Part shown: positions 1,581 to 6,187 of the stretch, one piece after another
How the letters are laid out: every line of letters starts with the position of its first letter
Position numbering within the stretch: the first letter of the stretch is position 1
Source of the DNA: a virus
DNA length: 23,570 nucleotides
Virus record (IMG/VR): IMGVR_UViG_3300045911_000068
Span: 1-23,570 of that record
Strand: one strand, 5' to 3'
The notes under the pieces: model-generated
Told to the model about the DNA's origin: nothing
Databases searched by the model: none
What the model saw: only the letters and a program-made list of their open reading frames with translations
Program-made: the position numbers and the translations under genes

Positions 1581-1839
1581 GCTCCCCCTTCGCTGGTAGT
1601 GGCATCTCATCACTGGAGTTCGGCGCTTGATACCGCTCAGCCTGGGCTCGGGTCATGAAGTGAGTCTCTGCATACGACGGCCAATCAAATCGGACCGCAA
1701 ATTCCAGATGCGGTTTATTAGGATGACTGAATGGCCGCACCGTGATTTTACACCGCCGCCGCGCCGAACAAGGCGATGGACTCAACAGAGTCCCGGCGGC
1801 GGTTTCGGTGGATTCGGGAGTCTTTTGGCGGGTGCTCAT
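1573..1839 (-). CDS. Hypothetical protein, 88 aa
   Basis: 88 residues. The start at 1839 overlaps the methyltransferase stop by four bases (ATGA) and the stop overlaps the next start. The first 25 residues are Ser/Thr/Pro-rich and look disordered. A compact segment follows (RRRCKITVRPFSHPNKPHLE and on to an alternating FAVRFDWPSY strand-like stretch). It may be a small beta-rich protein. The family is not recognised. Confidence 0.6.
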   Translation of the reverse strand: MSTRQKTPESTETAAGTLLSPSPCSARRRCKITVRPFSHPNKPHLEFAVRFDWPSYAETHFMTRAQAERYQAPNSSDEMPLPAKGEHE

Positions 1840-2849
1840 GGGTGATCTTGTGCGTTGGGCAAAGAATCGACGCGCATTATGCAACGCATGATTTCCGCCG
1901 CGACTTGCGGCACAATGGCATTTCCGAGTCCTTTAATGCGGTCCACCCTTCGGGAAAGCCCATGAGCCACTCCACGAAAATCACGCTCAATTTCCCGCCC
2001 GCTTGATCGTTCAAGTTCCGTAATCGGGCTGGGTTGTCCCACCGTTCCGCCTGCCCAGTCCGGAAGTCCCTCGCCTGCGGAGTTGCAAACATCTTTGCAG
2101 CTAAAGCCAGTGGCGGCGATGATACCTTCCCAGCCTCCTTCCGTTTCAGCCAGCTCTCCAGGTTTTCGTTGGACGCTTTCGTTGCCCTCGGCGTGGGCCA
2201 CAATTTCACCTGAGCGCAGAGATACTTTTTTTTCAGCATCGTTTGATGCGATTTGCTCCCCTCCCGCCCGCTCCCTTTCCATTCTGTTGTGCTGGGAGTG
2301 CCCCACAATCCACACTCGTTCTCTTCTGTGTCGGGCGTTGATGCCGCAAGCTGGAATACAGAGCGCTTCGCAGGCGTAGCCTTCATTTTCCAGGTCAGCA
2401 AGCACACCGTCGAGCGCCAGCGTGATGATTCCAGGCACATTCTCACCAAGCACCCAACGGGGTCTTGCCTCGCGTATGACTCGCAGCATTTCCGGCCAGA
2501 GCGCGCGGTCATCATTGTTGCCTCTTCGTTGCCCGGCAACGCTGTAAGGCTGGCAAGGGAAGCCGCCTGTAATAAGGTCAATTGTTCCATATTCATCTCC
2601 CTTCATCTTGTGGATGTCGTTGACAATAGGCACATCCGGCCAGTGTTTGCGGAGCACGGCTTGCGCGTAGGGTTCACGCTCGCAAAAACCCACCGTCTGC
2701 ATTGCGTTCCATCGCGCCGCCAGAGCAAACCCGCCGATACCAGAAAACAAGTCGAGATGCCGCCAAACATGCCCAACAATGCGATGGACCGAATGCCTAC
2801 CAGCGGCGTCGTCCACTTTGCAATCAACGTCTGTTTCGATGGTATTCAT
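1836..2849 (-). CDS. dcm: DNA (cytosine-5-)-methyltransferase
   Basis: 337 residues. Motif I is LDLFSGIGGF (32-41), for S-adenosylmethionine binding. The catalytic loop is GGFPCQPYSVAGQRRG, with the nucleophile Cys at about 99. ENV is at 136-138, RHRRERVWIV at about 173-182 (motif VIII), and GLGNAIVPQVAAEI at 307-320 (motif X). The protein transfers a methyl group to C5 of cytosine in a short target, probably protecting phage DNA from host nucleases. The region between motifs VIII and X, where target recognition lies, contains repeated V-A-H-A/V-x-H-S-like stretches, and the usual RLQGFP-type motif IX is not visible. ATGA coupling to the HTH gene upstream supports the start at 2849. A second long frame overlaps most of the gene (1877-2590). 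Confidence 0.92.
   Translation of the reverse strand: MNTIETDVDCKVDDAAGRHSVHRIVGHVWRHLDLFSGIGGFALAARWNAMQTVGFCEREPYAQAVLRKHWPDVPIVNDIHKMKGDEYGTIDLITGGFPCQPYSVAGQRRGNNDDRALWPEMLRVIREARPRWVLGENVPGIITLALDGVLADLENEGYACEALCIPACGINARHRRERVWIVGHSQHNRMERERAGGEQIASNDAEKKVSLRSGEIVAHAEGNESVQRKPGELAETEGGWEGIIAATGFSCKDVCNSAGEGLPDWAGGTVGQPSPITELERSSGREIERDFRGVAHGLSRRVDRIKGLGNAIVPQVAAEIMRCIMRVDSLPNAQDHP
1877..2590 (-). CDS. Overlapping frame inside dcm: W-P-T-P repeat / LMGFPxGWT protein
   Basis: A 237-codon frame in the +1 phase of the methyltransferase gene and almost wholly inside it. Its ATG at 2590 (MEQLTLLQAASLASLTALPG) follows AGGGAG at about 6 nt, so it has its own ribosome binding site. A middle section reads STVCLLTWKMKATPAKRSVF. 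Three T-P repeats follow (LWGTPSTTEW, LWPTPRATKA, MFATPQARDF), and the end carries FVEWLMGFPEGWTALKDSE. I recognise this architecture from many separately annotated phage and bacterial proteins of unknown function. Here the same bases encode the conserved methyltransferase motifs in the other phase: for example LWPTP lies over IVAHA, and LMGFPEGW over VAHGLSRRV. Either it is a genuine overprinted gene or a shadow of methyltransferase conservation. Expression cannot be shown from sequence alone. Confidence 0.55.
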   Translation of the reverse strand: MEQLTLLQAASLASLTALPGNEEATMMTARSGRKCCESYARQDPVGCLVRMCLESSRWRSTVCLLTWKMKATPAKRSVFQLAASTPDTEENECGLWGTPSTTEWKGSGREGSKSHQTMLKKKYLCAQVKLWPTPRATKASNENLESWLKRKEAGKVSSPPLALAAKMFATPQARDFRTGQAERWDNPARLRNLNDQAGGKLSVIFVEWLMGFPEGWTALKDSEMPLCRKSRRKSCVA

Positions 2850-3064
2850 CGGTCATCTTCGGCGTTCGATTTATTGAGCCGTCTGGCCTTTTTACCCACG
2901 CACGCCAGCACCCATGCCTGAGCCCAGCCAGGAGGTTTCCGCGTCCCGTCGAGCCAGCACTGCACCGTCCGAACGGACAACAGCGGAGACACCGCAGCAG
3001 CGGCCTGACGTGCCGTCAGGCCCTGCATAACTTTTCTCAGTTCGGTTTGCCAGGTCATTGTCAT
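2846..3064 (-). CDS. Small helix-turn-helix protein
   Basis: 72 residues, with ATGs at 3064 and 3058. The core LTARQAAAAVSPLLSVRTVQ followed by CWLDGTRKPPGWAQAW fits a helix-turn-helix of the XRE/Cro or plasmid-copy-control type: a helix, a turn at S-P-L-L-S, then a recognition helix starting VRTVQCWL. The C-terminus is basic. It overlaps both neighbours by four bases and follows the promoter/operator region at 3448-3476. It is a plausible transcriptional regulator of this left-end operon, but whether it represses or activates cannot be seen. Confidence 0.65.
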   Translation of the reverse strand: MTMTWQTELRKVMQGLTARQAAAAVSPLLSVRTVQCWLDGTRKPPGWAQAWVLACVGKKARRLNKSNAEDDR

Positions 3065-3484: not shown

Positions 3485-5536
3485 TTAATTATTTTTCCCA
3501 GGCAAAAAGTGGTCTGGTATATGGGGGTCTGGCCGAATAATGCGAGAGGCGACAAGGCGGCGCAGAATTGGCGGGCAAGAGCTATCTTTGTAACCCTCTC
3601 TCTGTAACCATGTTAAAATGTCCTTGCGGGACATTGGCAGGACTGCCTGTAGGCAAGACCAGTCCTTTTTGGGGCGGTTTGCAGGGGCAGTCCCATTGCC
3701 CGCCCCGCCCGCATTGGGGTCGGGACACGCGAGCCAGGATTGGCCCCGGTCCGAGTGGCGCAAGAAAATACGGGTCGAGGCGAGGCCATCGTAATCCCGC
3801 AAGCCAGCCCGCCCACCGCGCTTTACCGCCGAGAGACAGAAGGTCGGCGCGTCGTCGTTCTCGGTCTTGACTCTCTGCAAGACCATGATTGAGCGTGCCC
3901 AGTTGGTCAGATCGGACGACCCGATGCCGAGGTATTGGAGATCAGAGTCGGTCCAATGCTGGCGGGCCTTGGCATCGGCAATGGGCTTGCCGGTGTGGTG
4001 GACCCAGATCATGCCGGGGCGGGTTGCCGATTGCTCGAGGATTTGGTTGATCCCGTTGCGGAAGAATGAGGATACCGTCTCCAGCTTGGTCACGTCGCTG
4101 CCGACGTAGGTCAAGAGTGGATCGGCAATCACCAGATCGGGGCGGTGCATGGCAATCAGGCGTCTAATCCGCTCCAGGAATCGCTCGCCACTGGCCCCAC
4201 TCTCGCTCAAGAAAACCATGTTCCGCTTGGCGGCATCCCATTCATCAGCTTGGAAAGCATGGCCCACGAGGCCTTGGAGCATTTCGCCCACGTCCCCGTT
4301 GTCGTTCTCTGCCTGAATGTAGAGGATGCGCAACGGGCGTGCCGGGGCCAGTCCATGGAAGTCCCTTCCCAAGGCCCACCGCACGGCAGCCGTCAGAATC
4401 AGTGTGCTCTTGCCAATGCCGCTTGAGCCAACAAAAAGCGCAGAGCGAGTTCGGCACAGCCAGCGGTGCCCAAGCAGATTGTCGGGGTCCTGGGTCCAGT
4501 CGGCAACAATGAGTCTGTCGAGGTCGAGTGGCGCAGGCAATGGATCGGCGTGTGCCGCCTCCCACTCATCCCAACTCGCAGCCCCAACGGCCAGCTCGAT
4601 GAGTTCTTGTTTCGCGTCTCCGCGAGGGTAATTGGGGAAACGGATCGAGCGGGACGGGTCGGACAGGCACTTGTCGGGGGCAGGCAGTCCTAGCCTGGCT
4701 ATGTGGTCCAATGCAGCCTGCGCCCTAGTCCGAAATGTAGCGGCATCAGGCGCATCAAATCGGACGGCGGCGTGGTATGATTTCCCGCCCGAGAACACCA
4801 CTGCGGATATGGGCAAGCCGCTCTGGACGATCCAGGACATTTGCTCCTTTAGCGTGCCTTGGTCCCACTCTAACAACCCATGCCGGAAAGCCACAACGCC
4901 AGCGTGCCCTGCCTTAGTCGCGGGATTGATGACCACTCCTAGGCCGCACCCCTCGCCACGTGGAGGAAAGAGCTTGGCGGGTGCGTGCCCCTCAGATAGG
5001 CGAGCGGTGATCGTCTCATAGCTCCAGGCATCCCCGCGCCCCGCCCACGACGGTTCGCCATTCTCGTCGAGGTGCTGCTGCCGGAACACAAGAGGCTCGC
5101 CTGGCTGAAAAAGCGCGTCCACAAATGCTTGCGCCCCGCCAGGAATCACAGGGGGCAACTCGGTGGGTGCCGGGGTCGTTCCGTTGCGCGTTGGCTGCGC
5201 CCCAAGCGTTGGGCGCAATGCCGGAGCCTGGCGCGGACCAGTCCGGTCCTCAAACCGATGCTCATACCTCCGCCTGGCGGGAGTTGCCTCAGCCGCCTTC
5301 TTGGCCCCATCCGCAGCCGCATTCGAGCGCCGCGCCGATGCCAGGACCGACCGTGCCTCCGCCTCAGAGAGGCCATAGCGCACCGCCGCTGGCACCAGCT
5401 CGGCGGCCACCAGATCGGCGGGATGACCTGCCCCCAGCCACGCCACCGCCGCCTCATACAGAGCGGAATTGCGCTGGCCAGACCCAACCAATCCTCCGAG
5501 GAACATATCCACAGCTTGTGGCAGACGACGACTCAC
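3485..5536 (-). CDS. Primase-helicase (RecA-fold replicative ATPase)
   Basis: 683 residues. The N-terminal 75 residues are helical, then comes a Pro/Ala/Thr-rich linker (about 75-130). The middle part (about 135-320) has SGGKSYHAAV (249-258) and DPSRSIRFPN (293-302), which resemble the last motifs of archaeo-eukaryotic-type primases; the expected first acidic motif is not clearly seen. The second half is a RecA-fold ATPase: Walker A GSSGIGKST (370-378), Walker B LVIADPLL (468-475), and WVHHTGK (511-517) like the RepA/DnaB-type helicases. The C-terminus looks like a winged helix (RKDILTWLQREG). Its likely job is to prime and unwind the phage origin. It overlaps the RuvC-like gene by four bases. 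Confidence 0.82.
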   Translation of the reverse strand: MSRRLPQAVDMFLGGLVGSGQRNSALYEAAVAWLGAGHPADLVAAELVPAAVRYGLSEAEARSVLASARRSNAAADGAKKAAEATPARRRYEHRFEDRTGPRQAPALRPTLGAQPTRNGTTPAPTELPPVIPGGAQAFVDALFQPGEPLVFRQQHLDENGEPSWAGRGDAWSYETITARLSEGHAPAKLFPPRGEGCGLGVVINPATKAGHAGVVAFRHGLLEWDQGTLKEQMSWIVQSGLPISAVVFSGGKSYHAAVRFDAPDAATFRTRAQAALDHIARLGLPAPDKCLSDPSRSIRFPNYPRGDAKQELIELAVGAASWDEWEAAHADPLPAPLDLDRLIVADWTQDPDNLLGHRWLCRTRSALFVGSSGIGKSTLILTAAVRWALGRDFHGLAPARPLRILYIQAENDNGDVGEMLQGLVGHAFQADEWDAAKRNMVFLSESGASGERFLERIRRLIAMHRPDLVIADPLLTYVGSDVTKLETVSSFFRNGINQILEQSATRPGMIWVHHTGKPIADAKARQHWTDSDLQYLGIGSSDLTNWARSIMVLQRVKTENDDAPTFCLSAVKRGGRAGLRDYDGLASTRIFLRHSDRGQSWLACPDPNAGGAGNGTAPANRPKKDWSCLQAVLPMSRKDILTWLQREGYKDSSCPPILRRLVASRIIRPDPHIPDHFLPGKNN

Positions 5537-6030
5537 AGGCCCGCCCTCCGTCCATACTCGGCGATCAGGGCGGCATCAATGAGTCCATCATGAGGCGTCC
5601 TGCATCGGTCGGACGCTCGCCAGTCGGTGGTCGGCCACAATCTCCCCGCCACCTCCAGTGCCCGCGCCTTGGTCTCCCCGGACTTGGCCCCCGGGATCAT
5701 CACCCGCTGCCAAGCCTGCGGCGTCACGCGCTCATAACGCCCGCCTCGGCATTCGAGCATGGCGCGCAGTGCGTGGAACGATCCCGCCATCGATGTCGCC
5801 GCCCGGGCCGACTTGGACCCTCCTGGTTCCTCGATGATCGTCATCGTGTCGGGCAGCTGGATGTCCTGCCAATCCAGCCACCGGATCACCTCGCAGATGT
5901 CCACTTCGTTCCCCTTCCGCGCCCGCTTCACCGGCATCGGCAGCAGGGCCAACGGTGGGAGACCAGCGGTTGGCGAGAGTGCCACCAACCCGCCCGAGAC
6001 CCCATTATCGATTCCCAGATATTGCTTCAT
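5533..6030 (-). CDS. RuvC-like Holliday junction resolvase
   Basis: 165 residues, the size of a RuvC-family nuclease. It begins with the RNase H-fold strand YLGIDNGVSGGLVAL (Asp8). The second acidic position is TIIEEPGG (Glu67/68), and the last is HDGLIDAALIAEYGRR (Asp148, Asp152), the HDxxDAxxIAxYGxR signature. The segment VTPQAWQRVMIPGAKSGETK matches the region before the last acids in phage RuvC homologues. It would cut four-way or branched DNA during replication and before packaging. It overlaps the RHH-like gene by 26 bases and the primase-helicase by four. Confidence 0.88.
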   Translation of the reverse strand: MKQYLGIDNGVSGGLVALSPTAGLPPLALLPMPVKRARKGNEVDICEVIRWLDWQDIQLPDTMTIIEEPGGSKSARAATSMAGSFHALRAMLECRGGRYERVTPQAWQRVMIPGAKSGETKARALEVAGRLWPTTDWRASDRCRTPHDGLIDAALIAEYGRRAGL

Positions 6031-6187
6031 TTTTTTCCCTTGTTAGGTGTTGCCACATGGCTTCCACCATCCGGCCAGGGGCGATGCCCTGAGACGCGCA
6101 AATAGACGTGAAAGCCTCCCAAAAGTCCGGGCACACACTCAGCGCCACCCGCACCCTCCGTTTCCTTTTGGTTCGATTCTTACTCAT
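6005..6187 (-). CDS. Putative ribbon-helix-helix DNA-binding protein, 60 aa
   Basis: 60 residues. A very basic start (MSKNRTKRKRRVRVALSV) leads into a strand-like stretch, then helix PDFWEAFTSICASQG, a turn, and helix APGRMVEAMWQHLTREK. This order fits an Arc/MetJ-type ribbon-helix-helix dimer, with the strand contacting DNA. The ATG at 6187 is preferred because AGGAGG lies about 8 nt upstream; a GTG at 6193 is too close to it. It resembles the product of the gene immediately upstream (6190-6321), suggesting tandem duplication. It may be a small regulator of the replication genes. Confidence 0.6.
   Translation of the reverse strand: MSKNRTKRKRRVRVALSVCPDFWEAFTSICASQGIAPGRMVEAMWQHLTREKNEAISGNR

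Follow-up and report, generated by a model that had tools for sequence, protein, structure and literature searches.

Two reading frames of one viral gene very probably encode the two subunits of a C5-cytosine DNA methyltransferase

In single-chain C5-cytosine DNA methyltransferases such as M.HhaI and M.HaeIII, the target-recognition domain and motif IX share one reading frame with the rest of the enzyme. M.EcoHK31I is a natural two-polypeptide enzyme, in which the large chain carries motifs I-VIII and X and the small chain carries motif IX only, the predicted target-recognition domain being assigned to the large chain, and in M.AquI motifs IX and X are both located on the small chain (PMC3404938). 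The gene analysed here is encoded in the window, i.e., the whole 23,570 nt (23.6 kb) stretch that makes up a virus record, and shares with M.EcoHK31I the presence of motifs I-VIII and X on a large chain (alpha) and of motif IX on a separate small chain (beta). The small chain of M.EcoHK31I is reportedly encoded in another phase within the large-chain gene, as Lee et al. are said to have described in 1995, and M.EaeI is a further two-polypeptide enzyme of the same sort. The specificity of M.EcoHK31I is YGGCCR. The nested small-chain gene of the window resembles the arrangement reported for M.EcoHK31I in this respect as well. However, the window contains a phage gene for which no adjoining restriction enzyme was identified, and the recognition region is placed in beta here, whereas published work assigns it to the large chain, a disagreement that stands. 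The assignment to the M.EcoHK31I kind is one of anatomy. With M.AquI the window enzyme has in common that it would be a natural two-chain methyltransferase divided after motif VIII, but motif X lies in alpha and not together with motif IX on the small chain. An M.AquI-like division is found in the actinophages Stasia, Phanphagia, and NiebruSaylor. A literature search, for which most subscription papers were beyond reach, found no paper describing a phage-wide nested family.

The earlier note on this DNA had described a 237-codon frame in the +1 phase within a 337-codon methyltransferase gene, provided with its own AGGGAG site and ATG, and our reading of the open frames agrees. The beta frame lies entirely within the alpha gene and is open from 2596 or 2590 to 1877 (-), so that beta comprises 239 aa if the ATG at 2596, immediately adjacent to the AGGGAG, is used and 237 aa from the ATG at 2590. 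The superpositions of motifs from both phases quoted in that note are all exact, and its observation that the methyltransferase phase lacks motif IX while the other phase has LMGFPEGW agrees with our frame reading. In the window, the LMGFP codons of beta start 35 nt ahead of the GLGNA codons of motif X in alpha, and a short distance between the two motifs is common to most loci. Translation of the small upstream ORF and of alpha is probably coupled via their ATGA overlap. Elsewhere in the window, a 326-codon open frame (5125-6105, +) runs antisense to the gene of an AAA ATPase (3485-5536) and to the gene next to it; this frame probably just mirrors GC-rich coding sequence. A 281-aa ORF (135-980, -), which presumably resembles phage PAPS-reductase-like proteins, gave no Pfam match at 0.01.

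Table 1. Coordinates of the two-phase gene, its motifs and its upstream neighbour in the window.
Feature	Position	Strand	Remark
alpha, putative C5-cytosine methyltransferase large subunit	1836..2849	-	337 aa, motifs I-VIII and X
beta, putative nested small subunit with motif IX	1877..2590	-	237 aa, +1 phase of alpha
beta ribosome-binding site (AGGGAG)	2597..2602	-	6 nt upstream of ATG 2590
alpha motif I (FSGIGGF)	2727..2747	-	not within the overlap
alpha motif IV, catalytic PCQ (GGFPCQPYS)	2541..2567	-	overprinted by the beta N-terminus
alpha motif VIII (HRRERVWIV)	2304..2330	-	from sequence reading
beta predicted hairpin (WRSTVCLLTWKMKATPAKRSVFQL)	2348..2419	-	best-confidence part of the AlphaFold beta model
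beta W-x-T-P units (WGTPS, WPTPR, ATPQARD)	2066..2305	-	proposed target-recognition region, role inferred
beta motif IX (LSVIFVEWLMGFPEGW)	1943..1990	-	conservation in 80 sequences
alpha motif X (KGLGNAIVPQ)	1905..1934	-	G-N invariant in 54 sequences
small ORF upstream of alpha	2846..3064	-	stop overlaps alpha start (ATGA)

We propose that the two phases of this one stretch very probably encode the two subunits of an M.EcoHK31I-like C5-cytosine DNA methyltransferase. Alpha would bind AdoMet and bear the catalytic PCQ cysteine without possessing a small domain of its own, and beta, translated from the internal ribosome site, would supply motif IX and presumably the DNA-contacting target-recognition part. 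Both chains would be needed and would assemble in order to methylate a specific DNA sequence, the most likely purpose being to shield the phage genome from host restriction.

Alpha displays motifs I, IV (PCQ), VI (ENV), VIII, and X and the large-domain fold by which C5-cytosine DNA methyltransferases are recognized. It matches phrog_363 (8.6e-79) and Pfam DNA_methylase (4.5e-41), the latter over residues 31-209 only, which correspond to motifs I-VIII. In the AlphaFold model, the large domain matches that of M.HhaI, residues 202-296 between motifs VIII and X are unstructured, and no small domain is present. The large domain is what alpha has in common with the single-chain enzymes M.HhaI and M.HaeIII. 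A reading of all three frames did not find motif IX in the alpha frame, so that alpha differs from single-chain enzymes, in which one polypeptide holds I-VIII, IX, and X together.

The missing motif is encoded by beta. Its consensus is LxPxFVEWLMGFPxGWT, and among 80 beta sequences the M and a G are invariant and L-P-VEWL-P-G-T nearly so; variants such as MMGFP or LMGYPAEH were covered by three-frame reading and profile search. The spacing L-x-P-five residues-L-x-G-F-P is identical to that of LTPRECWRLQGFP in ordinary enzymes. The number of W-x-T-P units varies from 0 to 6 per beta across the family. Modelled by itself with AlphaFold, beta shows little order (pLDDT 63) except for the hairpin and the motif IX helix, and a fold search with this weak model gave no match and is uninformative. 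Comparison of beta with Pfam, NCBIfam, and PDB returned nothing relevant and no solved relative, and Pfam DNA_methylase matched 0 of 80 beta members. What likens beta to the small domain of ordinary enzymes is motif IX together with the fused relatives, because matches to Pfam, structures, or folds are lacking. Beta does match phrog_1008 (2.2e-33), a profile that it has in common with separate and fused actinophage forms, although PHROG 1008 is a sequence family named by annotation that states no mechanism. As PHROGs names it "DNA methyltransferase" and some annotators mark the inner gene, the statement in the earlier note that the family is annotated without a function has to be corrected.

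The order of the motifs on the DNA is that of a single-chain enzyme, and one could imagine that programmed frameshifting fuses both frames into one polypeptide with motifs I-VIII, IX, and X instead of producing two chains. Exchanged phases are also encountered, since motif IX is located in the alpha frame at L007:2740-3760 and L213:3660-4700 and motif X in the beta frame at L208:3790-4700, in each case as if by single indels, which may be real or sequencing errors. However, two shifts would be needed, the second one inside the 35-nt interval that separates IX from X, and the internal start signals are enriched. A Shine-Dalgarno sequence plus start codon is found near the beta start in 118 of 185 loci versus 52.8 expected, in comparison to 18 versus 17.3 expected for the control phase. 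We therefore regard frameshifting as improbable and maintain that two chains are very probably made.

Relatives in actinophages inform about the role of beta. In the Mycobacterium phages Aggie (gp53) and Daenerys (gp70), motifs I-VIII, P-T-P units, IX, and X are encoded in one frame, and Aggie gp53 unites phrog_363/116 and phrog_1008 on a single chain. In Phanphagia the enzyme is divided between the overlapping genes gp65 and gp66, which share 87% and 57% identity, respectively, with the halves of the Aggie enzyme, and Stasia, NiebruSaylor, and Vash possess a split enzyme with motif X on the second chain. In RedFox (gp43) and Samy (gp50) the second gene is separate and, as annotated, does not overlap with the first. 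Profile alignment connects the beta family of the window with these actinophage proteins at 98.6% probability. Wherever it is fused, the beta family appears to be part of a methyltransferase, and therefore the nested form likely has the same role. Beta is best understood as the small-domain subunit, because motif IX is present in beta and absent from alpha and because its family is fused to alpha in actinophages. An internally started, co-made partner could also regulate the enzyme, which is the sole point in favour of beta regulating or inhibiting the methylase instead of belonging to its active form. Against this, alpha is devoid of motif IX and of a predicted small domain, which must come from elsewhere, and the beta family constitutes the in-frame C-terminal half of single-chain methyltransferases; such a role thus appears improbable. 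Between the two functions once suggested for the inner frame, target-recognition partner or inhibitor, motif IX and the fused relatives make partnership the best reading, while inhibition finds no support.

When the window is considered alone, the +1 phase stays open along the 232-codon stretch of beta homology in 245 of 20,000 random synonymous recodings of alpha (1.2%). By itself the open frame is mildly unusual and no proof, and therefore related loci were collected, namely two sets of 80 viral loci, one retrieved with beta and the other with alpha, and 80 loci from bacterial genomes by the beta profile. With the window counted, profile search places beta in the +1 phase of alpha in 240 of 241 loci. 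The 241st, L147, had been considered as a stand-alone beta, which was rejected, as it is a tandem duplication in which beta is likewise nested in the same phase, so that the phase agrees in 241 of 241. At this locus (L147:130-1960), a complete alpha/beta pair is followed by an alpha that lacks the part with motifs I-IV and contains a complete second beta in its +1 phase. The suggestion that the family is generally an overprint of phage dcm genes agrees with the nesting at all 241 loci but is too strong, because it does not extend to the stand-alone and fused actinophage forms described above (RedFox gp43 and Samy gp50, Aggie gp53 and Daenerys gp70).

As stop counts within the beta-profile envelope are circular, regions defined by alpha were used instead. 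Between motifs IV and X, the +1 phase is open in 60 of 62 non-redundant loci selected by alpha alone, where synonymous shuffling predicts 2.0, and the +2 phase in none of the 62. Over this region, which is wider than the beta-profile envelope, 147 of all 170 non-redundant loci are open in +1 versus 6.4 expected, and the remaining 23 clusters show one or few +1 stops somewhere within it. None of 37 ordinary methyltransferases, which have motif IX in frame, is open in +1, but this contrast is weak because the control set is mostly AT-rich (expected 0.0).

Both frames are also under constraint. With a beta profile trained on bacterial loci only, and thus independent, the beta of the window scores 250.6 bits, while none of 1000 shuffles that preserve alpha exceeds 121, and its alpha obtains a profile score of 242, while no shuffle that preserves beta exceeds 94; among viral loci, the real frame lies above every shuffle that preserves the other frame in 125 of 126 and 126 of 126 cases. 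Related genes differ at alpha codon positions 1/2/3 by.147/.092/.381 before the overlap and by.232/.126/.233 within it. The silent position of alpha, which is the second position of beta, is slowed and the silent position of beta, the first of alpha, is faster, as dual-coding constraint would produce. Conservation of alpha exceeds that of beta over motifs IV-VIII (.52 versus.38), and beta exceeds alpha at motif IX (.64 versus.55). Part of the N-terminal similarity of beta is forced by alpha, because ordinary methyltransferases give weak N-terminal matches to the beta profile in +1 as well; the shuffle, substitution, start-signal, and openness tests take this forced similarity into account. Judged from these sequences, the comparative evidence for a real second protein is decisive, and the prediction of a large, long-lived dual-coding gene is upheld by the common phase and the constraint on both frames. 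That beta is a by-product, untranslated or functionless and kept open and recognizable in +1 by the alpha protein and codon use, is contradicted by the shuffle tests and very improbable, as the level forced by alpha is surpassed in openness and sequence as well as in start signals and the pattern of substitutions, in spite of the 1.2% of open shuffles and the weak matches in ordinary enzymes, alpha would otherwise lack motif IX, and beta is a separate gene in other phages.

Two-phase loci occur in about ten bacterial phyla, as judged by record title, and in many phages, and the hundreds of such phage and bacterial genes are mostly annotated with just one protein. In Escherichia phage ST20 (L249) the inner frame alone is annotated, as a hypothetical protein, the annotation of Paenibacillus phage Shelly marks it as "g55 internal gene", and in phage Leyra it appears as a second "DNA-cytosine methyltransferase". 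ST20 belongs, together with a Klebsiella (L244) and a Rhodobacter phage (L250), to a second subfamily, in which the nested frame ends with HSRWLMGFPVEW / HSRWLMGYPxEW. At L050:2300-3150, an HNH-endonuclease-like insert, which matched no Rfam intron family, splits the two-phase gene at motif VIII, and VIII-like sequence is present on both sides. At L065:2500-3700, alpha has a stop just ahead of the motif IV PCQ (GGFP*PCQD) and beta is intact. One Roseovarius chromosome (OX638333.1) contains the same beta match five times (L201-L205), which suggests related prophages or a repeated element.

To our knowledge, there are few documented cases in bacteria and phages of long overlaps on the same strand in which both frames have been preserved over such a time. 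We tentatively consider it possible that single indels, by shifting motif IX or X between phases, act as an evolutionary switch through which the enzyme in phages changes among a single-chain, an AquI-like split, and a nested organization, and that the W-P-T-P units (0-6 per beta) are exchangeable recognition modules overlying the free linker of alpha. Both proteins very probably form one cytosine-methylating enzyme together. If such a "dcm" gene were expressed or recoded with only alpha in mind, beta would be lost and the product would probably be inactive. Relatives in fused, split, and nested form provide material for studying how a domain switches its reading frame.
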